Source: an uncultured Porphyromonadaceae bacterium (GTDB lineage Bacteria; Bacteroidota; Bacteroidia; Bacteroidales; Muribaculaceae). Taken from it: a stretch of 61,667 nucleotides of DNA. Both the position numbers and the translations under genes were made by a program. The DNA lies in contig CAMWLC010000010.1 in the NCBI GenBank assembly GCA_947174995.1, positions 1 through 61,667 of the forward strand, given 5' to 3'. Positions 472 through 55,362 of the stretch are shown here, one piece after another. Under the pieces are notes generated by a model that saw only the letters and a list, made by a program, of their open reading frames with translations, did no database searches and was not told the DNA's origin. Each line of letters opens with the position of its first letter. The first letter of the stretch is position 1.

Positions 472-502
472 TTGGTGATATTAAAAATTATTGGTATCTT
501 TG
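472..502 (+). promoter_or_regulatory. Promoter of the large secreted-protein pair
   Basis: The -33 TTG (472-474) and -7 TATCTTTG (495-502) are 20 nt apart. This places the transcript start near 509, downstream of a possible TTG start codon at 491. It supports the ATG at 644 as the true start, with a leader of about 135 nt. Confidence 0.65.
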
Positions 503-643
503 CACTCGGATTATATGCGATTGGGTCGGTGGTTCCCGACATCATCCCACGACCATTCTCACATATATGAAGCCGGACAGGAATCCGAATCTCCGACAAC
601 TAACATCAATCAACATCATAAAATCAAAATATTCAAACGAATA

Positions 644-33561: not shown

Positions 33562-33567
33562 ATCCTT
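33149..33567 (-). repeat. Near-identical direct repeat, copy A
   Basis: Matches 34103-34521 at a constant offset of 954 bp, covering the 5' ends of the two paralogous genes. I count about two differences. Confidence 0.85.
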
Positions 33568-33591
33568 ATTCTATTAATTTCCTCTCATTTT

Positions 33592-34515: not shown

Positions 34516-34521
34516 ATCCTT
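34103..34521 (-). repeat. Near-identical direct repeat, copy B
   Basis: Partner of 33149-33567. The high identity of this 5' block, against well-diverged 3' halves, suggests recent gene conversion. Confidence 0.85.
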
Positions 34522-34540
34522 CTATTTTAATATTTCTCTT

Positions 34541-36151: not shown

Positions 36152-36175
36152 GACTCCCTCAAAACTGTACTATTT

Positions 36176-39174: not shown

Positions 39175-39182
39175 GGTGTCTC

Positions 39183-41042
39183 TTATTTTGCTTTTGCGTC
39201 GATGTGCTTGATTACTCCCTCTACGATCTCCTTGACCATGAAGGGCTGTCCCTCCACCTTGTTGATGCGCATGATCTCCTTCATGGGGAGGTGCATCTGA
39301 AGGTAGTCGGCAAACATGCCGGTGTTGAGCTCGGCCACGATCACGTTGTCATACTTGCGGATGAGGTCGAGCGCACCCTTGGGCATGGGGTTGATGTAGC
39401 GGAACTGCACGAAAGCCACATTGCGGCCCTGCGCGTTGAGTTCCTCGCAAGCGGTGTAGAGATGTCCGTAGGTGCCTCCCCAGCCCACGAGCAGGGTCTT
39501 GGCGTCGGGATTGCCGTGAACGGTCAGCTCGGGTATGGAGTCGGCTATGCGGGCGATCTTCTCGCGGCGTATGCGCACCATCTCTTCATGGTTGCGGCCG
39601 TCGGTGGAGATGACGGAGGTCTTAACATCCTTCTCCAGACCGCCTACGCGGTGCATCGCGCCCTCCATGCCGGGCACGGCCCAGTAGCGCACCAGGCTCT
39701 CTTCGTCGCGCAGGAAGGGCTTCCATCCCTTCTCAAGCATCTCGGGGGTGACGAAGTTGGGCTTGATCTCGGGATATTCGTCAGCCTCGGGTATGCGCCA
39801 TGCGGAGGAGCCGTTGGCGATGAAGGCGTCGGTGAGGAGTATCACAGGGGTCATGTGTTCGATGGCTATGCGGGCAGCCTCGAAGGCCATGGTGAAGCAG
39901 TCGGTGGGGCTCACGGCGGCCACAACGCAGAGGGGCGATTCGCCGTTGCGTCCGTAAAGGGCTTGCATAAGGTCGGTCTGCTCCGTCTTGGTGGGAAGGC
40001 CGGTGGAGGGGCCGCCGCGCTGCACGTCGATCACCACGAGGGGAAGCTCGGCCATCACTGCCAGGCCGATACCCTCGCCCTTGAGGGCCAGGCCGGGACC
40101 GGAGGTGGAGGTCACGGCGAGGTGTCCGGCGTAGGAGGCGCCGATGGCGCTGCAGACACCTGCGATCTCATCCTCCATCTGACATGCCTTCACGCCGAGA
40201 TCCTTACGCTTCGCAAGCTCGTGAAGGATGTCTGTGGCGGGGGTGATGGGATACGAGCCGAGGAAGAGTGGGCGTCCGCTCTTCTGCGAGGCCATGATGA
40301 GGCCCCAGGCGGTGGCGGTGTTTCCGTTGACATCGGTATATGTGCCGGGACGGGTCGATTCCGTCTCGATGCGGTAAGTAGGCATCGAGGAGTGGGTGTT
40401 ATGGCCGTAGTCCCAGCCGGCCTGTATCACCTTGGCGTTGGCCTCGTAGATGGCGGGCTTCTTGGCGAACTTGGCCTGGAGCTTGCGCAGCACGCTCTCC
40501 ACCGGGCGGTCGAAGAGCCAGCAGATGATGCCCAGGGCAAGCATATTCTTGCATTTCATTATCGCCTTGGGGTCCATGCCCGAGTCGGCGAGAGTATTCT
40601 TGAGGAGGGTTGTCATCGGGACACCCATCACACGCTTGGGATCTATGCCGAGCTCCTTGATGGGGTCATCGGTGGTGTAGAGGGCCTTTTTCAGGTCTGC
40701 GGGACGGAAGGTGTCGGTGTCGCAGATGATTATGCCACTCGGCTTGAGATACTGGAGATTGGTCTTGAGGGCGGCGGGGTTCATGGCCACGAGCACGTCG
40801 GCCTCATCACCGGGCGTGTGGACACCCTTGCCGATATGGACCTGGAATCCCGACACACCGCTCAGGGAGCCTTGCGGGGCGCGGATCTCGGCGGGATAGT
40901 CGGGAAACGTGGAAATCTGGTTGCCCTCGCCCGCCGACACGTTGGAGAAGATATTGCCGGCCAGCTGCATTCCATCGCCGCTGTCTCCGGAGAATCTCAC
41001 CACTACCCTGTCAAGGGTCTGTACATTGGTGCTTTGTAACAT
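39183..41042 (-). CDS. korA: 2-oxoacid (2-oxoglutarate):ferredoxin oxidoreductase, alpha subunit (gamma-alpha fusion)
   Basis: The 619-aa product starts with the gamma domain (VVVRFSGDSGDGMQLAGNIF, residues ~12-190), followed by the alpha TPP-enzyme domain with GSYPITPATDILHELAK near residue 260, and the transketolase-C-like domain near 500-600 (LLVGWGGTYGHLYTA). This gamma-alpha fusion is the normal form in Bacteroidota. A separate ferredoxin (delta) subunit is not encoded next to it. The predicted promoter is 41071-41101. Confidence 0.92.
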   Translation of the reverse strand: MLQSTNVQTLDRVVVRFSGDSGDGMQLAGNIFSNVSAGEGNQISTFPDYPAEIRAPQGSLSGVSGFQVHIGKGVHTPGDEADVLVAMNPAALKTNLQYLKPSGIIICDTDTFRPADLKKALYTTDDPIKELGIDPKRVMGVPMTTLLKNTLADSGMDPKAIMKCKNMLALGIICWLFDRPVESVLRKLQAKFAKKPAIYEANAKVIQAGWDYGHNTHSSMPTYRIETESTRPGTYTDVNGNTATAWGLIMASQKSGRPLFLGSYPITPATDILHELAKRKDLGVKACQMEDEIAGVCSAIGASYAGHLAVTSTSGPGLALKGEGIGLAVMAELPLVVIDVQRGGPSTGLPTKTEQTDLMQALYGRNGESPLCVVAAVSPTDCFTMAFEAARIAIEHMTPVILLTDAFIANGSSAWRIPEADEYPEIKPNFVTPEMLEKGWKPFLRDEESLVRYWAVPGMEGAMHRVGGLEKDVKTSVISTDGRNHEEMVRIRREKIARIADSIPELTVHGNPDAKTLLVGWGGTYGHLYTACEELNAQGRNVAFVQFRYINPMPKGALDLIRKYDNVIVAELNTGMFADYLQMHLPMKEIMRINKVEGQPFMVKEIVEGVIKHIDAKAK

Positions 41043-41106: not shown

Positions 41107-41140
41107 GGGGCCGCAAAATTCAACAATTTTGCGGCCCCGC
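41107..41140 (-). terminator. Terminator of the putative DNA-utilisation operon
   Basis: A perfect 15-bp stem CGGGGCCGCAAAATT / AATTTTGCGGCCCCG with a 4-nt loop, 40 nt past the stop of the last nuclease gene and just upstream of the korA promoter. The following T tract is weak. Confidence 0.75.
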
Positions 41141-41179
41141 AGGAATTTGGCTGATTATCAGAATGAATTTGCCTGACTG

Positions 41180-42970
41180 TCAGAAGAGAATTTTGGAGGC
41201 CCCCTTGGGAGTGACCACGATATAGAGTCCGCGCAGGGGACGCGAGGCGTCCACGCGAACCCCGCGCAGGTCGTAGACGACCGTGCCTTCGGGAGCAGTG
41301 AGCTGTCCGTTTTCCACACGCGGCGTGCCATCCGCGCCCGGGGCCGTTACGGCGGAGTTGCCTCCGTCAGCCAGGGCATAGAGGGAGACACGCTCCAGGG
41401 TGGTGGAGGTGTAGGTGGAGAAGCGGGGCTGCGAGGCGTTGTAGAAGATATTGCCGACGCCGGAGCCGAAGGAGATGGTGGCCGTGCCGTCGGGGTCGAC
41501 CGTAATGGTGGTTTCCGAGCCGTCGGGGGCTATCTGCATCTTCTTTGCGGTGGTGGACGAGAGGTAACCCAGGGAGTTGCCAGCTATGTCGGAGACGCCG
41601 ATATACCAGGTGTCGCCGGAGGTGGAGACGGAGGCCGGCTCAAGGGTGAGGACGGCGGTGTTTTCCATCACACCGGTAATGGTATCGTCCTGAGGCTCGG
41701 CTTTCCAGTCGGAGCCGAGGCTCCAGGAGCTGGAGGATTTCGAGACAGAGGTATTCATGACTCCGTGGTTCTTCACGCTGACAAGGATGTACTGTCCGCT
41801 CTCGCTCAGGTCTGCCGAGGATGTGACGAGTCGCCAGGAGGCATCCTTGAGGTCTTCGTTGGCGGGGTTGCGGGCCAGGAGGGTGAGCGTGGCTTCCGGG
41901 GAGGAGAGGGTTAGACCGTCGGCCGCCGCGCGGGTGCGGGCGGTGATGGTGCGCGTGATTCCCTCCTGCGAGGCGGCGGCGATCTCGATGCCCCCCTCAT
42001 ACTTCATTTCCGGTCCCCCGTCGAGGGTGTACCAGATATCGCCCGTGCCCTCGATGGAGAGGGTCATGGTGTCCCACCACCGACCGGAGTAGGTGTTGAG
42101 CGCGGGCATCTCCATACCTGTGAAAACGGGTGATTCCGGACGGTTGATTATGGTCTGCACGGCATCGGAGGCCTCGAAGGGGGCACCGTTGCCCGCTCCC
42201 CAGATAAAGTCCATGAGCCTGGGCATGTCGATAAAGGGGTTGCGGTTGCCCTGTATGCCATATATTGCCTCATTGCGGGCGACCTCGCGGGCATCCACGG
42301 GGTCATCGGCGGCCCACTGCAGGAGCATGTCGTAGGCCCAGGGACGCAGGGTGAGCGCCGAGTTGGAATCATACATATAGGCCGGACTATCCTGCCAGGG
42401 GATGTCGTCGTATATGGTGAACACATAGAAATACGCCCGGGCGAAGTCCCCCTTGTATTCGTCGGCCGGCTCGAAGACGGTGGCGGAGCCTCCTCCGAAT
42501 CCGATGACGGGGACACCGAGCAGGCTCAGGCCGTTGGTCCATGTCAACTGGTCCACGGGGCCCATAGGCCAGTTGGACTTGCGGTTGTTGGCGTCGGAGT
42601 TGGAGGGGTTGAGCAGGTGCAGGTCGCTGTATGCCTCGACACTTCCGCTCTTGCCGCCCCACCAGGAGTTGGGCACGGAGTGCTCGATGTTGAGACCGTT
42701 GTGACCGTTGGCTACCGGCTCCATGACGTTGGAATACATGTCATACCAGATTTCCTTCCCGGCGACGGTGCGGGTGTCGGTAGTGAGGAAAGCCTCCCAG
42801 GTATGGTCGCCGTAGCTGATGACCTTATGGTCGGCTATGGCGCTCTTGACGGCCTGCTTGAGGCGCGTGCCGGTCTTTCCGTAGAGGGAATCGTAGTATC
42901 CTGCCGGGATGGCTGCGGCGGCCGCGAGGGCCACCGTGGCCGCAGGGATGATCATTGAGATGCGTTTCAT
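41180..42970 (-). CDS. Secreted endonuclease I family protein, copy 1
   Basis: The 596-aa product has a signal peptide (MKRISMIIPAATVALAAAAA) and an N-terminal endonuclease I (His-Me finger) domain at about residues 20-270. The general-base histidine H97 lies in LNIEHSVPNSWWGG, with the metal-site asparagine in ANNRKSNWPMG about 35 residues later. A chitobiase-like strand IWYTLDGGPE follows near 315, then an unnamed beta-rich domain of ~150 residues that is also present in copy 2 (GNSLGYL and YNAS.PRF.TYTS), and a T9SS-like tail (VVYDLRGVRVDASRPLRGLY). It probably cuts DNA, perhaps RNA too, at the cell surface. It is the last gene of the operon, 12 nt after copy 2. Confidence 0.9.
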   Translation of the reverse strand: MKRISMIIPAATVALAAAAAIPAGYYDSLYGKTGTRLKQAVKSAIADHKVISYGDHTWEAFLTTDTRTVAGKEIWYDMYSNVMEPVANGHNGLNIEHSVPNSWWGGKSGSVEAYSDLHLLNPSNSDANNRKSNWPMGPVDQLTWTNGLSLLGVPVIGFGGGSATVFEPADEYKGDFARAYFYVFTIYDDIPWQDSPAYMYDSNSALTLRPWAYDMLLQWAADDPVDAREVARNEAIYGIQGNRNPFIDMPRLMDFIWGAGNGAPFEASDAVQTIINRPESPVFTGMEMPALNTYSGRWWDTMTLSIEGTGDIWYTLDGGPEMKYEGGIEIAAASQEGITRTITARTRAAADGLTLSSPEATLTLLARNPANEDLKDASWRLVTSSADLSESGQYILVSVKNHGVMNTSVSKSSSSWSLGSDWKAEPQDDTITGVMENTAVLTLEPASVSTSGDTWYIGVSDIAGNSLGYLSSTTAKKMQIAPDGSETTITVDPDGTATISFGSGVGNIFYNASQPRFSTYTSTTLERVSLYALADGGNSAVTAPGADGTPRVENGQLTAPEGTVVYDLRGVRVDASRPLRGLYIVVTPKGASKILF

Positions 42971-42982
42971 GGCTGCGCGGGA

Positions 42983-44509
42983 TTATCTGATGATGATCTT
43001 GCGTCCGGCGCGGACATATATGCCGGGAGCGGGATTTGCGGTGTCCACACGGCGTCCGCAGAGGTCATACATAGCGTCGTCCTCTCCCAGGGCCGGAACA
43101 GCCGGGATACACTCCACTGCGGTGGAGCCGTTGAGGCGGAAGAGCTGCACGGGCTGCTGGTTGGAGGTGTAGGTGGTGAAGCGCGGTGCGGAAGCGTTGT
43201 AGAGGAGTTTGCCTACGGTGTTGGAGTAGGTGATGGTCGTCTCGGCGGCGGAAACCTCCATCTCCACCGATGTGGAGGGCGATGATGAGAGGGTGACGGT
43301 CTTGGCCTTGGTGCTGTCGAGGTATCCCAGGGAGTTGCCGTCGGTGTCATGGACATGGATATACCATCTGCCCGCTCCGGCGGATTCGAGAGTCAGGATG
43401 GCCGTGCCGTGAGGCAGTGCGCTGATGAGGTCACCCTCGATGCTGACATTGCCGGTGACGTCCATGTAGGTTTTGTTCAGGGTGTAGTCCATGGCCACTT
43501 CCGCTTCCGTGGCTACGAGGATGTAATGGGTGGCGGGAGCCAGTTCGGAGACATTCTTGACACGGCTCCAGATACCGTCAGGCACGGGTTCCGGGTCAGG
43601 TACGGGCTGGGGATCGGGGCCCGGCGTCGGGTCGGGACCGGGTGTCGGGTCAGGATCCGTATTGCCATCAAGATGGAAGGCCTGGTCGGTCTTGGAACCC
43701 CATACGTATTCGGCCAGTTCGGGAATGTCGATGTAGGGGTTGCGGTTGTGCTGCACCTTGTAGATGGCCTCGTTGCGGTCACGCTCCTTCTGGTCCACGG
43801 GGTCATTTGCAGCCCATTCGAGGAGCATCTCGTAAGCCCAGGGGCGAAGCGATGGCCATGCGGAGCCGTCAAACATATAGTTGCGGTCGGAAGAACCGCT
43901 CTGCCATGCTATGTCATCGTAGACGGTGAACATATAGAAATACGTGCGGGCGAAGTCTCCCTTGTATTCATCGGCCGGCTCATAACACCACTTGCTGCCG
44001 CCGCAGGCTCCCGAGGCGGGAGTGCCGACTTTCGTGACGCCGTTGTCGTAGGTGACGCCCTTGCTTGTGGTGTGGACCTTCACCACTATGCCGAGGGGAT
44101 AGTTGGATTTCCAGCTGTTGGCATCCGTGTCGGAGGGATTGAGATGGAAAAGATCCTTGTAGGCATCGTTTTTGGTGCCCCCCCACCAGGAATTGGGCAC
44201 GGAGTGCTCGATGTTCATGCCGGGGTGTCCCTGGGAGACGTACACCACATTGGGGCTGTACATGTCCCACCACGCGAGGCGCCCGTTGACGGTGCGCGTG
44301 TCGGTGGATTCAAAGGCATCCCATGTGCTGTTGCCGTAGCTGATGGCCGTGTGTTTTTTAACCGCGTTTTTTGCGGCTTTTTTGAGGTCACTCTTCTTGA
44401 GGCCCTCGAGAGAAGAATAGTATCCCTCGGGGATGGCTGCGGATGCTCCGGCCACTGTCAGGAGCATCCCCGTGGCCCAGAGTGCGGGGCGGAGAAAATT
44501 GCGTATCAT
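42983..44509 (-). CDS. Secreted endonuclease I family protein, copy 2
   Basis: The 508-aa product has a signal peptide ending near GASAAIPEGYY, and an endonuclease I domain (about 25-290) with H102 in MNIEHSVPNSWWGG and the asparagine in ANSWKSNYPLG. A proline-rich linker of about 30 residues with repeated (P)GPDP units (about residues 285-315) separates it from the beta-rich domain shared with copy 1. The C-terminus MYDLCGRRVDTANPAPGIY...RKIIIR is a T9SS-like tail. The flexible linker suggests a surface-tethered enzyme with freedom to reach a polymer. It lies 37 nt after copy 3. Confidence 0.9.
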   Translation of the reverse strand: MIRNFLRPALWATGMLLTVAGASAAIPEGYYSSLEGLKKSDLKKAAKNAVKKHTAISYGNSTWDAFESTDTRTVNGRLAWWDMYSPNVVYVSQGHPGMNIEHSVPNSWWGGTKNDAYKDLFHLNPSDTDANSWKSNYPLGIVVKVHTTSKGVTYDNGVTKVGTPASGACGGSKWCYEPADEYKGDFARTYFYMFTVYDDIAWQSGSSDRNYMFDGSAWPSLRPWAYEMLLEWAANDPVDQKERDRNEAIYKVQHNRNPYIDIPELAEYVWGSKTDQAFHLDGNTDPDPTPGPDPTPGPDPQPVPDPEPVPDGIWSRVKNVSELAPATHYILVATEAEVAMDYTLNKTYMDVTGNVSIEGDLISALPHGTAILTLESAGAGRWYIHVHDTDGNSLGYLDSTKAKTVTLSSSPSTSVEMEVSAAETTITYSNTVGKLLYNASAPRFTTYTSNQQPVQLFRLNGSTAVECIPAVPALGEDDAMYDLCGRRVDTANPAPGIYVRAGRKIIIR

Positions 44510-44546
44510 TCGTTTGTTTGTCAGTTATATCTGTATTTGAATAGAG

Positions 44547-46292
44547 TTATCTTACGAGTATCCTCACGGGACGCGGCAGAGCCGGAGAGACTATGAAATA
44601 GACTCCGGGTGGGAGCAGGTGTCTTTCACCCTCGCGGGCAGTGAGGTTGAGTATGGTGAGACCGTCGGGGGTGAGCACCGTGAGGGGAGCCTCGTCGGGG
44701 GCGGCCACTACGGTGAAGCCATCCGTCTCGGGAGCTATGGCCAGCGGGAGGAGGTCGATGCCCTCCACTCCGGAGTCGCCGAGGACGGAGATGGTGTTGG
44801 AGCTTTCGGACATGTAGCCGAGGCGGACGCTGCATACGCTGTATGTCTCGGCGACCGCCGGGTCGCGTCCGTCGATAAGCAGGGAGGTGCCGTTGGCTTC
44901 GAGGAGCTCTCCCTCGGAGCCGCCGGGATAGTAGCGCACGCGGTTCACGACATAATAGTCCACGACCTCCGGGGCCATGGTCCAGTTGGCGCGGTATGAG
45001 CGGTCTGTAAGCTCCGTGGGGTCAAGGGCGGTGAGGCGCGAGAGCTGCGGCACGGGACACCCCTCGCCGATGAGCTTCACCGTCACGCTGGTGCCTCCGG
45101 GCAAGCCGCCGTCATAGAGGGCGAGCGTGGCCTCGTAGGAGCGTGTCTCCGTGGGTATGAACATGATGTTGAGCAGATATTCGGCTGCGCTGTTGATGGC
45201 CGAGGGGTTGATGCTTCTCGTGTCGGGCACGAAAGCGTCCCTGTCGGCTCCGCTGACTCGTACCGACAGGGGGGCGGTGAGGTTGGAGGCCTGGATGCGC
45301 AGGGGGGCGTTGATGGTGTTGCCGACGGCCGCCTGTCCGAAGTCAAGGGCCTCCCCGCTGACAGGCATTGTGATTTCGGGGTCGCCCGTTATGGGAGGAG
45401 TGACGTTGCCTCCCTGGTCGGCTATATGGAACACCTCGCCGGTGCGTGTGCCCCAGATGTATTCGGCGAGTTCGGGGAAGTCGATGAAGGGGTTGCGGTT
45501 CCCCTGCTGACTTTGGACTCCGTTGTTGCGGTCGATTTCCTTCTGGCTGACGGGATCGCGCCGCGCCCACTGCAGGAGCATGTCCACGGCCCACTGGCGC
45601 AGCGTGGGCCAGGGTTCGTCGGCATTGAACATATAGTTGATGCACCACGGCAGATCGTCGTAGACGGTGGCCATATAGAAGAAGGCGCGGGCAAAGTCAC
45701 CCTTGTACTCGTCTCCCGGCTCGAAGACCATGCTGCAACCTCCCCCGATGCCGCTCATGGGAGCGCCAACTTTGGTGAGCCCGTTGTCGTAGGTCACGCC
45801 TCCGGTGCGCGTCTCTCCGAGGGGATAGTTGAGCTTGGCCTGGTTTGCCGCTCCATCGGAGGGGTATAGATTCCACATATCGGTATAGGCGGGGGTGTAC
45901 TCCACGTCGCCGTTTCGCTTCCACCATGACTTGGGCACGGCGTGTTCGCGCTGCATCTTGTTGGCCGAGAAGGCGGATGTGCCGCTCTGGCCGTTGCGTA
46001 TCAGATAGATGTTATCGCTATACATCTCCCACCACCGGCGTAGTCCGTCATAAAGTTCGGGGTAGACATCGGTATATATCCAGTTGTTGGGAAGTCCGTA
46101 ATAGTCGAGGCGCGTGTGCGGGCTGACACACTCCTTGGCGGCCTGCTTGAGGCGGCCTGTCTGCTTTCCCTCCATGCGGTCGTAGTATCCGGCGGGATAC
46201 CCGGCGTATGCGTTGGAGGCTCCGGCCAGCAGGGCGGCGAAGAGTATGCCGCGCCAGGACGGGAGAATCTTCAGATCTGATTGCAGGGTCAT
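44547..46292 (-). CDS. Secreted endonuclease I family protein, copy 3
   Basis: The 581-aa product has a signal peptide ending near GASNAYAGYPAGYYD and a more diverged endonuclease I domain (about 30-290), with H117 in QREHAVPKSWW and the asparagine in GAANQAKLNYPLG. Instead of the domain shared by copies 1 and 2 it carries an Ig-like choice-of-anchor D/ASPM-like module (LDFGQAAVGNTINAPL, residues ~315-410), an FN3-like segment, and a T9SS-like tail (LLPPGVYFIVSPA...VRILVR). The different accessory domains argue for division of labour among the three nucleases, not simple redundancy. Confidence 0.88.
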   Translation of the reverse strand: MTLQSDLKILPSWRGILFAALLAGASNAYAGYPAGYYDRMEGKQTGRLKQAAKECVSPHTRLDYYGLPNNWIYTDVYPELYDGLRRWWEMYSDNIYLIRNGQSGTSAFSANKMQREHAVPKSWWKRNGDVEYTPAYTDMWNLYPSDGAANQAKLNYPLGETRTGGVTYDNGLTKVGAPMSGIGGGCSMVFEPGDEYKGDFARAFFYMATVYDDLPWCINYMFNADEPWPTLRQWAVDMLLQWARRDPVSQKEIDRNNGVQSQQGNRNPFIDFPELAEYIWGTRTGEVFHIADQGGNVTPPITGDPEITMPVSGEALDFGQAAVGNTINAPLRIQASNLTAPLSVRVSGADRDAFVPDTRSINPSAINSAAEYLLNIMFIPTETRSYEATLALYDGGLPGGTSVTVKLIGEGCPVPQLSRLTALDPTELTDRSYRANWTMAPEVVDYYVVNRVRYYPGGSEGELLEANGTSLLIDGRDPAVAETYSVCSVRLGYMSESSNTISVLGDSGVEGIDLLPLAIAPETDGFTVVAAPDEAPLTVLTPDGLTILNLTAREGERHLLPPGVYFIVSPALPRPVRILVR

Positions 46293-46320
46293 AGTCGTGC
46301 TATTTCTTTTGATAATGGCG

Positions 46321-46348
46321 GATGACGCTCCCGCGGGGGAGCGTCATC
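46321..46348 (-). other. Intra-operon hairpin
   Basis: 12-bp arms GATGACGCTCCC / GGGAGCGTCATC with a 4-nt loop, in the 100-nt gap between the upstream lipoprotein gene and nuclease copy 3. No T tract follows on the - strand. It could be a processing or stability element that sets nuclease expression apart from the uptake genes. Confidence 0.5.
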
Positions 46349-46392
46349 CTTGGCAGGGACGCGGTCGCCGGGGCGTCGCTTCCCTGGGAAGG

Positions 46393-48093
46393 TCATTCGG
46401 GGAGTTCGTACTCGTTCATGTTTATGCCGGGAGCGCCGAGATACTGCTGATAGCCACCCTTGACAAGGAGACGCATACCAAGCACTTGGGGAGCGTTCTT
46501 GAGACCGAGGGTCTTGCGGGCATCCGTGGTGAGGCGCACGGGCACGCAGAGCGACGGGTCGGTGCATCCGGGCGTCGGGGCGATGACGATGTTGGCGTTG
46601 GCATAGTCGGCGGAGGCATCGGGGAGTCCGAACTTCACTCCGGTCTCGTAAGAACCGCCCTCGACATATCCGACGATATATCCGGCCGTCCAGACACCGG
46701 TCTGGGCGAGCTCCCAGTTGGTGCGTACATACTCGATGGTATAGGGGTCGGTCTTGGTGCCCGTGCCTTGGCCCGTGAAGCCGGGGATTTCAAGACCCTC
46801 TATCTCGAAGTAGCTTGCGGAGCCGGGATTGCCGAGGATACCGGGCACCTCCTTGCCGCCGATGGCGTAGGGGGCGAAGCGTCCGTAGACCTTGATCTCC
46901 TTGCCGAAGTTGACGGGATTGTCGGCGAGGTTGCCGTATTCGCGCAACTGCGATCCGGCGGGGAGTTCGAGAGTCAGGCAGAGGTTGGGGTCGGTGATGC
47001 CGGGAGTCTCGGCCACGAGGAGGTTGTTGTCGGCGTTGTCGGCTCCGTCGTTGAAGATGTATGAGCCGTCATAACCGATGGAGCCCACGATATAGCCCGC
47101 CGTCCAGCCGGAGATACCGTTGGAGCCGAAGGCGAGGGTCTCGGGGATGGTGTAGGGCTTCTCGCGTGTGCCCTTGCCGTCGAAGATCACGTCGTCGGTG
47201 GAGCGCAGGAGAAGCTGCCATCCCTGGATGACGTCTGGCTGCGAGGAGTTGGCCGAGCCGTCGCCATACCACGAGAGGATGCCGCGCACCCGACCGGTGC
47301 CCGTGGGGAGAATATCGTTGTAGAATGTGGAATAACCGGAGTTGCGCACCACCACCTGCTTCGAGGATGACTCGCCGGTGATGTAGCGGTTGACGGTCTC
47401 CTGATAGGGTGCGTAGATTTCCACGCCTCCGTCCACGAAGCTGACGTTGCTGAACTCCACGAGCTGCCCCTGCAGCATTACGCACTCCTCGGAGAGGGCG
47501 GCGATGTCTGCCAGGTCGTCGATGGAGAGGGATATACAATACATGGAGTCGGAGGGTCTCTCGGAGTCAAGACCGATGAAGCGGGTGTCTATGGTGGGAT
47601 TGCCATCAAGCTGGGTGTGGGCCTGGAATTCCGCGAACGACATGAAGGTGAGCTGGTCCTGGCCGTTGTAGGGCTCTCCGAGCCAGCCGAGCTGCATGAG
47701 GTTGTTGTAGCGGCCTATCCAGAGGCCCGTGACATCGATGACCACTTCCTGGCCGAGGTGATACTCGTTGTAGAGACTGGCGCGGCGCACGGTGATGGGC
47801 ATGGCTGCCGTGGCGTCCTGCACCATGAGCGACTGATAGATGTTGCCCGTGGCGTCGGAGGAGATCACGCGTCCCTTGATGATGTAGTGTTCGCCGGTGG
47901 CCTCGTCCTTCACCGGGCAGAGGGTGGCGTTGGTGTCCATGAAGGTCTCCTTGAGCTGGGCGATGGTGGTGTTGGGGACCATCGTGGCGACAGGCGCGGT
48001 GAGCTCGGGGTCGTCGAAGGAGTTCTGACAGCCCGTGGCCACCGTGATGGCCAGCAGCGCGAGACCGGTCCGGAATATTGATTTGAGTTTCAT
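46393..48093 (-). CDS. Surface lipoprotein with DUF5689-like OB-fold and DUF6359-like repeats
   Basis: I start at 48093 (MKLKSIFRTGLALLAITVATGC), which puts a lipobox cysteine at residue 22; the longer frame to 48135 adds 14 residues. The mature 566-aa precursor has a DUF5689-like segment (TIAQLKETF... YIIKGRVISSDATGNIYQSL, residues ~40-310), an OB-fold associated with nucleic-acid-related secreted proteins, then two similar repeats carrying WTAGYIVG (about residues 345 and 485) like DUF6359. It is likely tethered to the outer membrane and binds substrate for the adjacent TonB receptor, taking the place SusD-like lipoproteins hold in glycan loci. The role is inferred from position. Confidence 0.8.
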   Translation of the reverse strand: MKLKSIFRTGLALLAITVATGCQNSFDDPELTAPVATMVPNTTIAQLKETFMDTNATLCPVKDEATGEHYIIKGRVISSDATGNIYQSLMVQDATAAMPITVRRASLYNEYHLGQEVVIDVTGLWIGRYNNLMQLGWLGEPYNGQDQLTFMSFAEFQAHTQLDGNPTIDTRFIGLDSERPSDSMYCISLSIDDLADIAALSEECVMLQGQLVEFSNVSFVDGGVEIYAPYQETVNRYITGESSSKQVVVRNSGYSTFYNDILPTGTGRVRGILSWYGDGSANSSQPDVIQGWQLLLRSTDDVIFDGKGTREKPYTIPETLAFGSNGISGWTAGYIVGSIGYDGSYIFNDGADNADNNLLVAETPGITDPNLCLTLELPAGSQLREYGNLADNPVNFGKEIKVYGRFAPYAIGGKEVPGILGNPGSASYFEIEGLEIPGFTGQGTGTKTDPYTIEYVRTNWELAQTGVWTAGYIVGYVEGGSYETGVKFGLPDASADYANANIVIAPTPGCTDPSLCVPVRLTTDARKTLGLKNAPQVLGMRLLVKGGYQQYLGAPGINMNEYELPE

Positions 48094-48131
48094 TGTGATG
48101 ATTGCTTGTTGATGTGTTGGACTGGAGGGTG

Positions 48132-49160
48132 TCACTGCGGCTTGCTGTATACGCCCGTTACGGTCACTTTGTCAATCTCCCAGGTGCCGGAAAGCTCCTT
48201 GGTGGAGGTGTAGCGGAAGCCAATCCGGATTTTCTTGCCGGCGAAGTCGTCGAGGTTGATGTATCCGGAGTCGCTGAAGGTCCAGCTCGTACCGTCGGGG
48301 AGGATGGGTATCTCCACTCTCTCCCAGTTGTCAGTGCCGGCCACGCACACCATCGTGGAGGTCATCTCGTCGAAGGCCTGCGGGGTGCCGAAATAGTTGG
48401 CGGCCTGATGCACCATCAGGCGGGGTGTGACATAATTGGTGAGGTCGATTTCGGGAGATATCGCCATGGCGTCGGTGACGGCCGCGCTTCCGGAGCGTCC
48501 GCCCGTAGCCACGAGGCCGTACTGCGTGCTGTGCTTCCAGGTGTCGTCGCTCCAAGGTGTGCCTTGGTCGAAGGTGAAGCCCTGCATGTCCGTGGTCAGG
48601 GTGACGGTCCAGACGGTGCGGGAGCCGGGAGGAGCTATCATGCTGGGATCCGGCTCGTGGCCCTCGTCGCCCCATTCGTAGTCCGTGACGCTGCGCACAC
48701 CGTAGGCGCTGCAATACTTGGAGCCGGTGGTGCCGTAGAGACACACGAGCTGTCCCTTGGCTTCGGGATTGCCGGCCAGGTTGAGGGCGTTGCGCACATT
48801 GCCCGAGGGAAGCTGCACGGGGACACACTTCGTCCAGTCGGTCTCGTCGGGAGTGGCGGCTATGAGGATGTTGGTGTTGACTGTGGCGGGGACATCGAAT
48901 TTCGCTGTCTCGGCTTTCAGGACATTGGTGATGTTGACATCTATCCAGCCTACTATATATCCCTTGACCCAGTTGTCGGTGCGGTCGCCGGGGGTGGCGC
49001 CCAAGGAGGCCTGATAGGCGGTCAGGGGGCGGTTCCAGTCGCCGTTGCCTATTCCCCCCTCGGGGAGCACCACCGGGGGCTGGGCGTAGTCGCCCGTACA
49101 GGCCCCTAAGCCGAAAGCCAGGGCGAGGAGCATCAGGACGTGGATTGCTGTATTTTTCAT
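48132..49160 (-). CDS. Surface lipoprotein with DUF6359-like and choice-of-anchor J-like domains
   Basis: The start at 49160 (MKNTAIHVLMLLALAFGLGAC) places a lipobox cysteine at residue 21. The 342-aa product has one DUF6359-like repeat (VKGYIVGWIDVNITNVL, ~65-160), related to those of the next lipoprotein, and a jelly-roll domain (FDQGTPWSDDTW... KIRIGFRYTSTKELSGTWEID, ~195-340) of the choice-of-anchor J type. It lies 33 nt after the TonB receptor gene and is probably its partner lipoprotein. Confidence 0.78.
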   Translation of the reverse strand: MKNTAIHVLMLLALAFGLGACTGDYAQPPVVLPEGGIGNGDWNRPLTAYQASLGATPGDRTDNWVKGYIVGWIDVNITNVLKAETAKFDVPATVNTNILIAATPDETDWTKCVPVQLPSGNVRNALNLAGNPEAKGQLVCLYGTTGSKYCSAYGVRSVTDYEWGDEGHEPDPSMIAPPGSRTVWTVTLTTDMQGFTFDQGTPWSDDTWKHSTQYGLVATGGRSGSAAVTDAMAISPEIDLTNYVTPRLMVHQAANYFGTPQAFDEMTSTMVCVAGTDNWERVEIPILPDGTSWTFSDSGYINLDDFAGKKIRIGFRYTSTKELSGTWEIDKVTVTGVYSKPQ

Positions 49161-49193
49161 TTCAATGGGATGTGTGATTCGGTTTGACATGGG

Positions 49194-51974
49194 TTAGAAA
49201 CGTACGCCTACGTTGAGGAATACGCGGATTCCCTGGGCGTATGACACCTTGTTGGGATACTTGTTGACGTTGTAGTCGGTGTAGTCAAACTTACCGTCCT
49301 GCCAGCCGCGCATCTGGATGTCGCGGTTGTTGAGGAGGTTGTTGACACTCAGGTTGAAGTTGAGCGAGCCCCAGCGGGTGTAGATCATCTTGCCCACGGA
49401 GAGGTTCATTACGAAGGCATCCTTGAGCTTGTCCTGGCGCGTGATCTCGTCGCGGCGGGCGATGTATTCCTCCTCGGAGGTGCAGAACTTCCACAGGCCG
49501 GGCATCTCCTCGTGGCGGGCGTATGCCAGATCATAATAGTTGTCGAGCATCCAGTTGGCGTTCAGCTCGAAAAACCACATGTTGACGTTGTAGTTCACGC
49601 CCACGCTGTATGCCTGCTGGGGAGTGCAGCCGATATGATAGTTCTTGAGGTAGACGGTGCGCTCCACGTCGGCTTCGGCTCCGTTCTCGTAGGAACGCAC
49701 ACCGTTGGGGTTGTTCTTGTACTGGTAGCGGCTAAATGTGCCCAGGGCCTCGATGCTCAGTCCGGTGAGGATCTTGTATTCCATGCCTATCTCGACACCC
49801 TTGTATTCGGTCTGGAGTCCGGAGATGGAGTAGTTCATGAAGCTCTTGAGGTCATAGTCGTAGAAGCCGGTGTGGCGGATGGCGTCCCATACGTGGGTGT
49901 AGAAGCCGGTGATACTTCCGCGGAAGCGGGGATACACCCAGGTGTAGGAGATGTCGCCGGTGAGGAATTTCTCGCTCTTCAGGTCGGGCACGGCTGTGTC
50001 CTTGATGCGCGGGCTGACGTATGAGTCGTAGGGACGCGGGGAGCGGCTGCCACCCTCGGCGTGGGCCACGATGTAGTTGCGGCCGTCGATTTTATATGTG
50101 GCTCCGGCTTTGAGGGCTCCGTTCCAGAAAGTGTATGTGTCGGAATTGCCGTAGGAGTTCTCGGGGGCGCGGCCGTTGCGCATGTTGCCGTGGCGCATGA
50201 AGGAGCTCACGGAGCCTTCGAGACCGTAGTAGACGTTCCAGTGGCGGGTGACGAGCTGGTTCTGCACCCAGAGGCGGGCGTCGTTCCAGCGGATGTTGTA
50301 GTCGTAGCCGAACACCTCGCCCTTCTTGGTGATCATGCGGTCGGGGTTGTTGAGGTCGTTCTGCAGCGAACCGGTGCTGTGGCCGAAGTCACGCTCGGAA
50401 TAGGTGTCGATGTCGCGCCAGAAATAGCCTCCGAGCAGGTCTTCCATCGTCTTGAAGTAGTGGGCATCGGTGTAGTTATAGCTGATACCCCCCTGGAGGG
50501 TCAGGACGTCGTTGATGCGATGGTTGATGTAGGAGTTGAAGAGGAAGGAGGTCAGGTTGCTGTGGTTGTTCTCCAGAATCGTGCTCGACTGGCCGTTGTA
50601 CTGCGGGTCGCGGTCGAAGTTGGTGTTGTTGAGCACGTTGCTTCGGTAGATGTCATCCCAGTTGATCTGACGGAAGGACTTGTCGGACTCCCATTTGTCC
50701 TTGATGAACTCATACTGGGCGAGCTGCGCCTCGTAAAGCGCCGTGCCCTCGTCGGCCGTGGGGGCCCAGAAGGAGGGCATGTTGCGGTAATAGTCCGGGG
50801 AGGGGCTGTAACCGTAATAGTTGAGGCGCGTCTGGGCGTATGCGTTGTGGCGGAAACCGAGGGCGGTGTTTATCACCGTGCCGCGGCGGGGCTTGAAGAT
50901 CCAGTTGAGCGTGGCCGAGGGATCGAAGGAGTTGATGACGCGGGCGCTGCGTTTCTTGCCGTCAAACCATCCCCAGGAGGGGTTGTAGAGGTTGCTTCCC
51001 GCCAGGTCGTAGGCCTCCTGCGTGGTGGTGCCGGCTGTGGCGCGTTCGGTGGGGGCGCCCCAGGTGGTGAGGTTGAGGGAGTGCTTGTCGTTGAATATCT
51101 TCTGCAGCGAGAGGCTATAGCCGAAGGAATTGTAGAAGGTGCCCTCGATGACTCCCTCGGGAGCGTAGCGGCCGATGACACTGGCCGAGAAGGCCCAGCC
51201 GTTGCGCGTCACGCCGGTGGAATACTGGAGCATGGCGCGTAGCATGTAGCTGGAGTTGGTGTAGCTCAGGTTGCCGCGGAAGCCGGGGGCGTATTCGGAG
51301 GCGTAGGTAGTGATGTTGGAGGAACCTCCGATGGCTCCGAAGGCGTAGGCCGCGGCGTCGGAGGCGATGCTGACCGATTTGGCGCGGAAGGCGCTGGAGG
51401 TCATGCCGCCGAAGGTGCTGTAAGAGAAGGAGCCGCGCATCGGGTCGTTGAACTTCAGGCCGTTGACGTAGCCGTTGCTCCAGGTGTTGTCCAGGCCGCG
51501 GTGCTTGAAGTAGACGGCCGAGAAGTTGTAGTTCGCCCCCTGATAGTAGATATCATCGGTGGCTCCCTGGATGGTACCTACGTTCTGGGTCATGCCGTCG
51601 TCGTCGGCGATCTGCTCCTCGTCGAATATGAATGAGTCTGAATCGAGGAGTTCGCCGTCATATCCGGATTCGGTCAGGACGATGTCGCCCAGGTCGAGGT
51701 CACGGTCGAAACGTATGAGTATGTCCTTGTAGAGGTCCTCATATCCGAAGGCCACGATGTTGAGCACGTCGGCTCCGCCTCCGAGGCCGGTGATGACGAA
51801 TGTGCCGTCATCGCCGGTGATTACGAACTTCTCCTGATCGCGCAGCAGGACGTTGGCGTCGGCTATGGGGCGATGGCCCGTGGCACTGACCACGCGTCCT
51901 CTGACTGCGGTCTCCGACACGGCTGTGAGCGATACGCAGAGCAGCGCGGTCAGCAGGGATATTTTCTTTAGCAT
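49194..51974 (-). CDS. TonB-dependent outer-membrane receptor (no SusD partner)
   Basis: I start at the ATG at 51974, which begins the signal peptide MLKKISLLTALLCVSLTAVS; the frame is open to 52022. The 926-aa product has an N-terminal carboxypeptidase-regulatory-like (CarboxypepD_reg) domain (VRGRVVSATGHRPIADANVLL), a plug domain with IQGATDDIYYQG, and a 22-strand-type barrel ending with the terminal strand AQGIRVFLNVGVRF. It is shorter than classical SusC proteins and no SusD gene is nearby. Neighbours are two surface lipoproteins and four secreted nuclease-type enzymes, so the likely cargo is oligonucleotides, nucleotides or nucleosides. That substrate is inferred from context only. Confidence 0.9.
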   Translation of the reverse strand: MLKKISLLTALLCVSLTAVSETAVRGRVVSATGHRPIADANVLLRDQEKFVITGDDGTFVITGLGGGADVLNIVAFGYEDLYKDILIRFDRDLDLGDIVLTESGYDGELLDSDSFIFDEEQIADDDGMTQNVGTIQGATDDIYYQGANYNFSAVYFKHRGLDNTWSNGYVNGLKFNDPMRGSFSYSTFGGMTSSAFRAKSVSIASDAAAYAFGAIGGSSNITTYASEYAPGFRGNLSYTNSSYMLRAMLQYSTGVTRNGWAFSASVIGRYAPEGVIEGTFYNSFGYSLSLQKIFNDKHSLNLTTWGAPTERATAGTTTQEAYDLAGSNLYNPSWGWFDGKKRSARVINSFDPSATLNWIFKPRRGTVINTALGFRHNAYAQTRLNYYGYSPSPDYYRNMPSFWAPTADEGTALYEAQLAQYEFIKDKWESDKSFRQINWDDIYRSNVLNNTNFDRDPQYNGQSSTILENNHSNLTSFLFNSYINHRINDVLTLQGGISYNYTDAHYFKTMEDLLGGYFWRDIDTYSERDFGHSTGSLQNDLNNPDRMITKKGEVFGYDYNIRWNDARLWVQNQLVTRHWNVYYGLEGSVSSFMRHGNMRNGRAPENSYGNSDTYTFWNGALKAGATYKIDGRNYIVAHAEGGSRSPRPYDSYVSPRIKDTAVPDLKSEKFLTGDISYTWVYPRFRGSITGFYTHVWDAIRHTGFYDYDLKSFMNYSISGLQTEYKGVEIGMEYKILTGLSIEALGTFSRYQYKNNPNGVRSYENGAEADVERTVYLKNYHIGCTPQQAYSVGVNYNVNMWFFELNANWMLDNYYDLAYARHEEMPGLWKFCTSEEEYIARRDEITRQDKLKDAFVMNLSVGKMIYTRWGSLNFNLSVNNLLNNRDIQMRGWQDGKFDYTDYNVNKYPNKVSYAQGIRVFLNVGVRF

Positions 51975-52041
51975 GTGGGATGTATAGTTGAAATCGATGT
52001 GGTTGATGTGGTTGGTTATCACGCTTTGGCCGGGACCGGGG

Positions 52042-53100
52042 TCATTTCACCTCCTTGACGAGGAAGATTTCGGTGGGGAAGTGGTCGGAATAGCCGTTTG
52101 TCCAGGCTCCGCCGGAGAATGTGCGGTGGGGGTATCCCTTGTACTGTCCGTCAGGCTGCTTGAGGAACTCTTTGTTAAGCACTTCGGCACCATGGAATTT
52201 CAGGCCTCCGCACCCTTCGAGCAGGTTGTAGTTGATGATGATCTGGTCGAAGAGGTCCCACTGTCCGCGATAGATGTAGGAGCCGATGCCCTTGTCGAGT
52301 TTTTCCCAGAAGGGGTTGAAGTATCCCCCTTCGTGGCAGTCCTTGGCTTTCTTGACGGCTCCCATCACTTCGGCGCAGCTCTTGTCGGAGGGATCGTCAT
52401 TGAGGTCACCCATGACAATGATGCCGATATTGGGGTCGATCTGCAGGAGAGAGTCGGCTATCTGGCGGCTGAGGCGTGCGGCCGCTTCGCGCAGGTAGCT
52501 GCTCTCCGCGCTACCGCCGCGGCGCGAGGGCCAGTGGTTGACGATGATGCCCACACGGCATCCTCCGAGCAGACCCACGACACACATCTGGTCACGCGTG
52601 CGGAAACGCGGTTTGTCAGGTATGGTCAGACGGTGGTTGGTGACGTTGATGAGCTTGAAGAAGCGGGGGTTGTAGAGCAGGCTTACGTCCACGCCACGTG
52701 CATCCGGGGAGTCGTGGTGCACTATCTGGAGATTCCAGTCCTTGATGGCGGGCTGGGCCACGAGGTCACGGAGCACGGTGATGTTCTCTATCTCGCTGCA
52801 TCCTATGACGGCCGGACCCATGGGAGTGGTTTTGGTGGTCATCTGGGAGATGGCGTAGGAGAGGTTGGCGAGCTTGGCGCGGTATTTGGCGCCGTCCCAG
52901 CGGTTCTTGCCCTCGGGCGAGAACTCGTGGTCATACTTGCCGTTGTTGTTGATGGTGTCGAAGAGATTCTCCAGGTTGTAGAAGGCCACTCCGAATGTCT
53001 GGAAGCGCTTCTTCTCCTGGGCATGTCCCGGGAGAAGCGTGACTGCGGCCAGGAGTGCTGCGAGACACAGGGAGGCTATGCGGCGGAGTCTGATGTTCAT
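52042..53100 (-). CDS. Secreted endonuclease/exonuclease/phosphatase (EEP) family protein
   Basis: The 352-aa product has a signal peptide (ending near LLPGHAQ) and the full EEP (DNase I-like) catalytic set: N42/E44 in YNLENLFD, the acidic pair in CSEIEN (E103/E105), H189 in NHWPSR, D232/N234 in MGDLNDDP, and D339/H340 in SDHFP. EEP proteins include DNases, exonucleases and nucleotide phosphatases; here a periplasmic or surface nuclease is most consistent with the operon. It is 43 nt after deoC and 67 nt before the TonB receptor gene. Confidence 0.88.
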   Translation of the reverse strand: MNIRLRRIASLCLAALLAAVTLLPGHAQEKKRFQTFGVAFYNLENLFDTINNNGKYDHEFSPEGKNRWDGAKYRAKLANLSYAISQMTTKTTPMGPAVIGCSEIENITVLRDLVAQPAIKDWNLQIVHHDSPDARGVDVSLLYNPRFFKLINVTNHRLTIPDKPRFRTRDQMCVVGLLGGCRVGIIVNHWPSRRGGSAESSYLREAAARLSRQIADSLLQIDPNIGIIVMGDLNDDPSDKSCAEVMGAVKKAKDCHEGGYFNPFWEKLDKGIGSYIYRGQWDLFDQIIINYNLLEGCGGLKFHGAEVLNKEFLKQPDGQYKGYPHRTFSGGAWTNGYSDHFPTEIFLVKEVK

Positions 53101-53143
53101 GATGGTGGAAGGTTGAGCGTACGGGGTTCGGAGGAATGAGGGG

Positions 53144-54022
53144 TCAGAAATATTTCACTTCGTGGCCCACCATGTCGCTGAGCACTGCGTTGGCAAGAGA
53201 GGAGGCGCCGATGCGGAAGTAGTCCTGGTTGAGCCATTCGTCGCCGAGTATTTCCTTCACGATGGCATAATACTGCAGGGCCTCCTGCGTGGTGCGCACG
53301 CCGCCGGAACACTTGAAGCCCACCTTGCGTCCGGTCTTCTCGTAATATTCCTTGATGCACTGACACATCACCCATGCGGCCTCGAGCGAGGCTCCGGGAT
53401 AGATCTTGCCCGTGGAGGTCTTGAGGAAGTCGGCGTCGCTGTAGAGCGAGAGGACACTGGCCTTCTTGATGGCTTCGGCGGTCTTGAGGGCGCCGGTCTC
53501 GAGGATCACCTTCATGCGGGCCTCCTTGCAGGTGTGCTTGAGTTCTATGAGCTCCTCGCAGAGACCTTCGTAGTCCTGGTCGCGGAACATTCCGACATTG
53601 AACACGACGTCCACCTCGTTGGCTCCGTCGGCCACGGCGAGGGCCACGTCAGCCACCTTGACGGCAGTGAAGGTCTGGCTGGAGGGGAAGCATCCGGCCA
53701 CTACGGCGATGTCAACTCCGGGCACGTCGAGATGGGTCTTGACCACACCGGCGAAGTTGCTGTAAACACAGATGGCCGCTACATTCTTAAACTGGGGATA
53801 GTCGTTGTCGAAGGCGTTGACGCGCTCGGTGAAGGCCGCCACGCTGCGCACGGAGTCCTCGGTGCTGAGAGTGGTGAGGTCGATGGAGCTGAGCAGAAAC
53901 TGATACACCTCGGGGGAGGCGTATTCTCCGGCCTTGGCCACTATTTTCTGCACTTCAGCTGCTACTGCGGCGTCATCGCTGAGCACACGGCTCGAAGCGA
54001 GTGCTTCCTGGTATCTGTCCAT
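53144..54022 (-). CDS. deoC: Deoxyribose-phosphate aldolase
   Basis: This class I aldolase splits 2-deoxyribose-5-phosphate into glyceraldehyde-3-phosphate and acetaldehyde. The 292-aa product has the Schiff-base lysine K201 in ADFLKTSTGK, the second lysine K237 in GFKCSGGVRT, and ANEVDVVFN near residue 134. It is the first gene after the promoter at 54089-54118 and precedes the secreted EEP nuclease by 43 nt. DeoC links DNA-derived deoxyribose to glycolysis, which gives the nuclease/TonB operon a metabolic outlet. Confidence 0.95.
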   Translation of the reverse strand: MDRYQEALASSRVLSDDAAVAAEVQKIVAKAGEYASPEVYQFLLSSIDLTTLSTEDSVRSVAAFTERVNAFDNDYPQFKNVAAICVYSNFAGVVKTHLDVPGVDIAVVAGCFPSSQTFTAVKVADVALAVADGANEVDVVFNVGMFRDQDYEGLCEELIELKHTCKEARMKVILETGALKTAEAIKKASVLSLYSDADFLKTSTGKIYPGASLEAAWVMCQCIKEYYEKTGRKVGFKCSGGVRTTQEALQYYAIVKEILGDEWLNQDYFRIGASSLANAVLSDMVGHEVKYF

Positions 54023-54088
54023 AATTCAAGGTATTGTTTTTGATATTCTATGTTTTGCGTTTGATTGGGCGCTTTTATTCACGATACG

Positions 54089-54118
54089 CAAAATTAATAC
54101 CCCCCGCGCAATAATCAA
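54089..54118 (-). promoter_or_regulatory. Promoter of the deoC-nuclease-TonB operon
   Basis: On the - strand, TTG (54116-54118) is followed after 19 nt by TAATTTTG (54089-54096), a near-ideal Bacteroidota promoter. I see no equally good promoter in the short gaps between the following eight genes. Confidence 0.65.
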
Positions 54119-55151: not shown

Positions 55152-55155
55152 TCTG

Positions 55156-55229
55156 AGCCTCTTGTCGGATTCGAACCAACGACCCCGAGATTACAAATCA
55201 CGTGCTCTGGCCAACTGAGCTAAAGAGGC
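55156..55229 (-). tRNA. tRNA-Thr (anticodon TGT)
   Basis: On the - strand the 74-nt sequence begins GCCTCTTTAGCTCAG, has the anticodon loop TTTGTAA (anticodon TGT), the T-arm GGTTCGAATCC, and a 7-bp acceptor stem GCCTCTT/AAGAGGC with discriminator T. No CCA is encoded. It has its own promoter and terminator. Confidence 0.93.
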
Positions 55230-55331
55230 AGGCGGGCAAGCGGTCTACACCGCCCTCTCAACCTATAACCCTTGCTACAATCAAGTCCTGGGGGATTCAA
55301 GGGAGACTGGCCCGTAGGGCTCACCCGGGCA

Positions 55332-55362
55332 CAAAATTACAACGAATTTCATTACCCACCAA
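55332..55362 (-). promoter_or_regulatory. Promoter of tRNA-Thr
   Basis: On the - strand, TTG (55360-55362), 20-nt spacing and TAATTTTG (55332-55339). It lies about 100 nt upstream of the mature tRNA, so the precursor has a long 5' leader. Confidence 0.6.

Follow-up and report, generated by a model that had tools for sequence, protein, structure and literature searches.

Gene Content of the Locus

The window, by which we mean the whole stretch of 61,667 nucleotides analyzed here (contig CAMWLC010000010.1 of assembly GCA_947174995.1, from an uncultured Porphyromonadaceae bacterium placed in the Muribaculaceae by GTDB), carries on its minus strand eight consecutive open reading frames (ORFs) that fill positions 41180-54022. 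In the direction of transcription, they encode a deoxyribose-phosphate aldolase (deoC), an EEP-family nuclease, a TonB-receptor-like protein, a DUF6359/anchor-J lipoprotein, a DUF5689/DUF6359 lipoprotein and three endonuclease I proteins (Table 1), separated by gaps of 43, 67, 33, 38, 100, 37 and 12 bases when ATG starts are used. Such starts are likely for the receptor (51974) and for the DUF5689 lipoprotein (48093), rather than those of longer GTG ORFs. A preliminary description of this DNA had proposed an operon of eight same-strand genes with short gaps, devoted to the use of extracellular DNA, and the gene arrangement was confirmed. The operon is real, conserved and specific to a clade, and its base is a widespread pair of receptor and lipoprotein that is tied to DNA uptake. 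The ruvC gene lies upstream of it, and downstream lie two genes that we take to be korA and korB (38152-41042), a pair that also begins after the operon in loci L002, L005, L013, L081 and L082.

Table 1. Features of the operon, listed in the direction of transcription.
Feature	Position	Strand	Basis
Bacteroidota-type promoter upstream of deoC, TTG-N19-TAATTTTG	54089..54118	-	consensus match
deoC, deoxyribose-phosphate aldolase, 292 aa	53144..54022	-	TIGR00126 143 bits, cut-off 117.3
EEP nuclease/phosphatase family (PF19580)	52042..53100	-	366 bits
TonB-dependent-receptor-like outer-membrane protein, N-terminal CarboxypepD_reg domain	49194..51974	-	profile matches, relatives
Lipoprotein, DUF6359 and choice-of-anchor J domain	48132..49160	-	domain matches
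Lipoprotein, DUF5689 and DUF6359 (2 stretches), receptor partner	46393..48093	-	domain matches
Perfect 13-bp hairpin, 4-nt loop, no T-run	46320..46349	-	z -5.8
Endonuclease I (PF04231), weak ASH/Cep192-like stretch, tail like a type IX secretion system (T9SS) C-terminal domain (CTD)	44547..46292	-	profile matches
Endonuclease I, Pro-rich linker, T9SS-CTD-like tail	42983..44509	-	profile matches
Endonuclease I, T9SS-CTD-like tail	41180..42970	-	profile matches
Terminator-like hairpin after last gene, perfect 15-bp arms	41106-41120/41125-41139	-	z -6.3 for surrounding 103 nt

The enzyme assignments of the preliminary description stood. The deoC product passes the cut-off of the TIGR00126 equivalog and is the sole PF01791 match in the draft genome; all three endonuclease I genes of this genome, as well as its only DUF5689 match, also lie in the operon. 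The EEP protein shows by eye a signal-like N-terminal segment and has the motifs NLENLFDT, GDLNDDP and SDHFPTE, whose roles we assume to be those usual in this family. The three endonuclease I proteins score 147-156 bits against PF04231, over its cut-off, and all contain EH and AN-K-N motifs, in which the EH and N residues presumably have the active-site roles of those in Vvn. When 15 endonucleases, including the three of the window, were combined into a profile, it matched the Vibrio nuclease structures 1oup and 1ouo at 1e-7, with an alignment to Vvn that covers the second half. Searches with the first endonuclease alone or the EEP protein alone matched no PDB chain. The accessory domains of the three nucleases differ, as had been proposed, but their matches are weak, that of the first being to Cep192_D4 at 7e-5, below its cut-off.

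Regarding secretion, the same 15-sequence profile matched gingipain C-terminal domains (5ag8, at E 1.9e-4, and 7pq4, 5hfs and 5ag9, up to 1.5e-3), and the host genome encodes the T9SS protein SprA (609 bits). Export of the endonucleases through the T9SS is likely rather than established, because none of them matched the sorting-domain models of Pfam or NCBIfam at E 0.1.

Receptor and Lipoproteins

The assignment of the third gene product as a TonB receptor comes from its relatives. The window protein itself matched CarboxypepD_reg domains only (the N-terminal one of the PF13620 type, 35.0 bits for a cut-off of 32.3), with no match to a plug or barrel model and a sub-threshold match to Ntox46. 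By contrast, Plug was matched in 12 of the 39 members of the receptor family at E 0.01 (best 1e-5) and the TonB barrel in two of the 39 at the same threshold (9.1e-8), and the 39-row profile reached the OprC barrel in PDB at E 0.001. The earlier call of a TonB receptor holds through these relatives, and not through the window protein.

At the N-terminus of both lipoproteins there is a lipobox-like sequence, whose Cys is invariant. The DUF5689 domain (PF18942) is matched with 162 bits in the protein whose gene is separated by one gene from that of the receptor. This protein scored 79.5 bits (2.2e-22) against NF052645, the M949_1556 family, whose curated cut-off is 475 bits, and it is therefore a distant homolog and not a member of the M949_1556 subfamily. 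Neither lipoprotein matched a SusD model of Pfam at E 0.1, in agreement with the previous view of a receptor locus devoid of SusD. The OB-fold-like domains also attributed to the lipoproteins found a weak echo in DUF5689, as PF01336 was matched in 4 of 31 such domains at E 0.05 (best 0.002), and none in the DUF6359 lipoproteins (0/8). No informative match came from profile searches of PDB, either with the DUF5689 proteins or with the DUF6359/anchor-J lipoprotein.

A Widespread Receptor/DUF5689 Pair

The distribution of the receptor was studied in the host family, in a sample of the phylum and in the host genus. These genome searches scored few candidates per genome (two for the phylum, six for the family and eight for the genus), so that receptor absences are not firm. 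In the host family, the receptor profile matched 121 of 149 genomes at E 1e-20, and in 111 of these the score was 400 bits or more. In the phylum sample it passed E 1e-10 in 128 of 395 genomes, most of the weak matches corresponding to the N-terminal domain only, and at least 58 genomes besides the host had one match of at least 369 bits; in two further genomes the match was split in two pieces, the next best reached 129 bits, and the receptor clade is well apart from other receptors in score. A receptor scan also gave 13 loci in named Bacteroidales metagenome-assembled genomes (MAGs), two of them called Muribaculaceae.

We examined the surroundings of the receptor gene at 93 loci, namely these 13, 40 from the host family and 40 from outside it, the latter from 40 of the 58 genomes outside the family that reach 369 bits or more. 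Both sets of 40 were chosen by hand from the matches in such a way that genera were covered and contig ends avoided. In 90 of the 93 loci (13/13 named, 39/40 family and 38/40 others), a DUF5689 gene follows that of the receptor on its strand at a distance of up to 2 kb; in L085 it lies one gene further, and it was not detected in L121 and L154. An EEP gene was found within 2.2 kb of the receptor in 60 of the loci (10/13, 17/40 and 33/40, respectively), mostly in divergent orientation outside the host family (30/40 loci). These data support that the receptor and the DUF5689 lipoprotein form a widespread pair across Bacteroidia.

The only text returned by a full-text search of the open-licence literature for DUF5689, alone or with TonB, was PMC8459023, a study of Riemerella anatipestifer. 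The pair described there consists of RA0C_RS04915, a CarboxypepD_reg protein predicted in the outer membrane, and its neighbor RA0C_RS04920, with DUF5689 and anchor J domains. Markerless deletion of either gene decreased transformation from 5.4e-5 to below detection (PMC8459023), and tonBA and tonBB mutants of Riemerella also transform less (PMC8383284). In the account of its distribution given in PMC8459023, the receptor homolog was found only in Flavobacteriaceae; our searches extend it to the host family of Bacteroidales, where it is common, and to another family within this order. A link to the Riemerella proteins is offered by locus L149, where a lipoprotein with 753 bits for NF052645 (cut-off 475), whose namesake M949_1556 is a Riemerella gene, adjoins a receptor that probably belongs to the clade of the window. 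Both receptors were placed by a common full-length profile and by a tree that includes only two distant outgroup sequences and none from Riemerella, and whose root is poorly placed. Architecture, gene order and profile suggest orthology with the Riemerella pair. Among the open-licence papers listed by searches on DNA utilization or uptake with TonB or SusC, none describes the operon in its title or abstract opening, its absence from print being unproven.

The Expanded Operon of One Genus

The order deoC-EEP-receptor-lipoproteins-endonuclease recurs in 13 other loci, with mostly short gaps and with proteins around 35-79% identical to those of the window, so that synteny is not limited to this genome. 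On the strand of the receptor gene, deoC at a distance of up to 3 kb was accompanied by endonuclease I at up to 6.5 kb in 8/13 named, 5/40 family and 0/40 other loci; in L086 deoC occurs by itself, and in the distant L138 only an endonuclease was found. The window and its 13 relatives, 14 loci in which deoC and endonuclease I are joined by an EEP gene in the same orientation, group in one clade with a support of 0.99. Next to it lies a clade of L083 (same genus), L006 and L007, with EEP, receptor and DUF5689 only. When four further loci of the genus were added to the tree, L168 joined the unexpanded clade, whereas L167 and L169, which keep deoC-EEP-receptor-lipoproteins without a linked endonuclease, grouped with L080 and L165 within the expanded clade and thus represent an apparent later loss of linkage. 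Separate endonuclease pairs (L170-L172) are present in genomes of the genus without a linked endonuclease, and L166 is the same stretch as L006. These data support that deoC and the endonucleases are additions to the receptor pair within one genus, a point that the preliminary description had missed, like the wide occurrence of the pair in the phylum and its known tie to natural transformation.

The association was also seen at the level of whole genomes. Among 101 genomes of the genus, 58 had a receptor match and 64 had endonuclease I, which was present in 58/58 receptor-positive and in 6/43 receptor-negative genomes (Fisher 1e-21, uncorrected for relatedness). Receptor and endonuclease I lie at most 8 kb apart in at least 42 of the 58 and linkage was not seen in 16; the count used part of the endonuclease matches, at least one for each of the 64 genomes, and is a lower bound because contig ends, as in L165, can hide linkage.

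Promoter and Hairpins

A single consensus promoter ahead of the operon had also been proposed, and this was borne out: with the Bacteroidota consensus TTG-N18-22-TAnnTTTG, the site at 54118-54089 is the sole full match on the operon strand from 54260 to 40900, for 12 full matches in the whole window on both strands. Of the 14 loci of the expanded clade, 7 have a full match in the 160 bases that precede deoC and three more have the TAnnTTTG part alone, so that this promoter is conserved only partly. Scans for sigma-70 promoters (6 found versus 4.5 expected) and for generic terminators (11 versus 11.4) were uninformative.

The end of the operon is marked, as previously described, by a strong hairpin, but a second one was found inside it, between the gene of the DUF5689 lipoprotein and the first endonuclease I gene, and the idea of an operon bracketed by one hairpin is therefore incomplete. 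To place this finding, the junctions of the window and its 13 relatives with the same gene order were compared for stems of at least nine pairs (G-T allowed), with at least five G-C and a loop of 3-12. A qualifying stem was found at the lipoprotein/endonuclease junction in 11 of the 14 loci, versus 4 of 68 other junctions, counts that are uncorrected for the tendency of this junction to be longer and that include both L001 and L009, nearly identical loci of one MAG. Its position is kept across loci while the sequences differ. As for the exceptions, L013 and L082 show by eye imperfect or longer-looped hairpins, and L080 has a 3-base gap and no hairpin. In the simplest reading, the junction hairpin would be an attenuator or processing site that separates the expression of the nuclease genes from that of the import genes.

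A Proposed DNA-Scavenging Operon

The DNA theme of the operon, already suggested by the preliminary description, is likely, as the nucleases stand beside a receptor/lipoprotein pair whose Riemerella counterparts are essential for transformation (PMC8459023). On balance, we lean towards a locus in which a DNA-import module has been turned into a DNA-scavenging operon. The endonuclease I proteins, probably exported by the T9SS, would cut extracellular DNA, and the DUF5689 lipoprotein would catch the fragments and hand them to the receptor, itself driven by TonB; the DUF6359/anchor-J lipoprotein may be a second subunit at the surface. The EEP nuclease may then trim the DNA in the envelope, and presumed salvage enzymes, encoded at other sites, would produce the deoxyribose-5-phosphate that DeoC would pass into central metabolism. 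Both DNA as the substrate of the receptor and a nutritional purpose of the operon are inferred. As for its origin, the receptor-DUF5689 core would descend from the Bacteroidia-wide pair needed in Riemerella for natural transformation, and deoC and the endonucleases would have joined it once, in the host genus. A broader proposal, that the pair is a TonB-powered outer-membrane DNA importer throughout Bacteroidia, rebuilt in one gut genus into a complete DNA-utilization locus, is more tentative, and we regard it as slightly more apt to fail than to hold.

Several observations weigh against a scavenging operon. The lower transformation of the tonBA and tonBB mutants was ascribed partly to iron by the authors (PMC8383284), and M949_1556, the namesake of the lipoprotein family, is described as involved in O-antigen biosynthesis (PMC5294843). 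The lipoproteins and the DUF5689 domain are acidic (isoelectric points of 4.3-4.5), while non-specific DNA binding predicts otherwise; the charge of the domain at pH 7 is -18 in the window, with medians of -14.7 and -15.3 in both groups, and ranges from -24 to +3 in the non-family domains (-1.2 in L149). A single simple transcript is made less likely by the junction hairpin, half of the expanded clade lacks a full match to the deoC promoter, and deoC, which is usually a housekeeping gene, may be no more than a neighbor here. Endonuclease I is common anyway, being present in 136 of 149 host-family genomes (110/111 of those with a receptor of at least 400 bits versus 26/38 of the others, uncorrected for relatedness), so that co-occurrence is informative mainly within the genus, and the genus figures themselves are uncorrected for relatedness. 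Finally, the presence of ComEC in the host genome (187 bits) makes transformation possible.

In that case, the pair would import DNA for recombination via ComEC and the nucleases would size the fragments or control competence, an explanation that we find improbable, in spite of the essential role of the homologous pair in Riemerella, since three secreted endonucleases plus deoC suit poorly the keeping of DNA at recombination length. No match to HHH_3, a ComEA-like domain, was found in the 92%-complete draft genome, a result that would also go against transformation, but this domain was dropped as a competence marker: of the family genomes, 133 of 149 match it, both of the strong matches that were scanned proved to be Tex proteins, and its pattern, including an apparent loss in genomes with the expanded operon, is therefore uninformative on competence. 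A single-sequence search with the host comEC detected no comEC near the receptor in the loci examined, a proximity that the Riemerella locus numbers suggest. Feeding, as an unproven preference, would fit deoC and three secreted nucleases better than transformation.

The operon could also serve the control of extracellular DNA, through remodeling of biofilms, escape from the DNA nets of the host or scavenging of phosphate, and the receptor would then import phosphate-rich oligonucleotides or another ligand. The T9SS-like tails of the endonucleases together with a T9SS gene in the genome, the hairpin that parts nuclease from import genes in most of the expanded loci, and the location of nuclease genes elsewhere in some genomes of the genus (L166-L172) would all agree with such a function, but deoC is the first gene of the operon throughout the expanded clade, in the window as in the 13 other loci, and we consider this function somewhat less probable still than transformation. 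Least probable of all is a chance neighborhood of ordinary deoC and endonuclease genes with a receptor of unrelated substrate, since, even if deoC is mostly housekeeping and endonuclease I occurs also in 20 of 28 family genomes without a receptor match, the order is kept with mostly short gaps across 13 other loci of one clade, co-occurrence in the genus extends to the 16 genomes in which receptor and endonuclease I were not seen to be linked, and the Riemerella counterpart of the receptor acts in DNA uptake. A defense system was considered and rejected, as all eight proteins lacked a PADLOC match at E 0.001.

Other Features of the Window

Positions 32626-37669 form a low-GC stretch (2-kb windows of around 50, 44 and 34% GC, versus mostly 50-63% elsewhere) that looks recently acquired. 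It holds four ORFs on the minus strand, one encoding a subtilase (PF00082) and three without a Pfam match at E 0.001. Two further proteins are encoded in the window, one of 2501 aa with Laminin_G_3 and Sortilin-Vps10-like matches (491-7996) and another of 870 aa with two starch-binding CBM26 stretches (20346-22958). At 55155-55333, a tRNA-Thr directly adjoins the Bacteroidales small signal recognition particle RNA.

Comparison with Known Systems

On the passage of DNA across the outer membrane of Bacteroidota, the screen in Riemerella pointed to genes of uptake for which no counterpart is known. The presence of this receptor/lipoprotein pair in an operon that resembles one for nutrition would link transformation to feeding on DNA, opens the hypothesis of a DNA importer to tests in non-pathogens, and could offer a marker for DNA-eating gut bacteria.

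The DNA degraders of marine sediments (PMC8289736) resemble the host in having several secreted nucleases per genome, with Bacteroidota among the taxa; the main text of that study makes no mention of TonB, deoC or deoxyribose. The window endonucleases share with EndA and Vvn the PF04231 catalytic domain and the profile match to 1oup/1ouo, and differ from them in the long C-terminal extensions with T9SS-CTD-like tails. As in the SusC/SusD polysaccharide utilization loci, secreted depolymerases, a TonB-type receptor and surface lipoproteins are gathered in one locus, whereas the SusD match is missing, the enzymes act on nucleic acid instead of glycans and the receptor clade stands apart in score; if the scavenging operon is real in function, it would be the nucleic-acid counterpart of such loci. 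The closest likeness is to the pair RA0C_RS04915/RA0C_RS04920 (PMC8459023), in which a CarboxypepD_reg receptor-like protein also stands beside a DUF5689 protein without SusD, and whose demonstrated role is transformation. In comparison with it, the window operon has deoC and EEP ahead of the pair, an extra DUF6359/anchor-J lipoprotein between its two members, and the endonuclease I genes after it.

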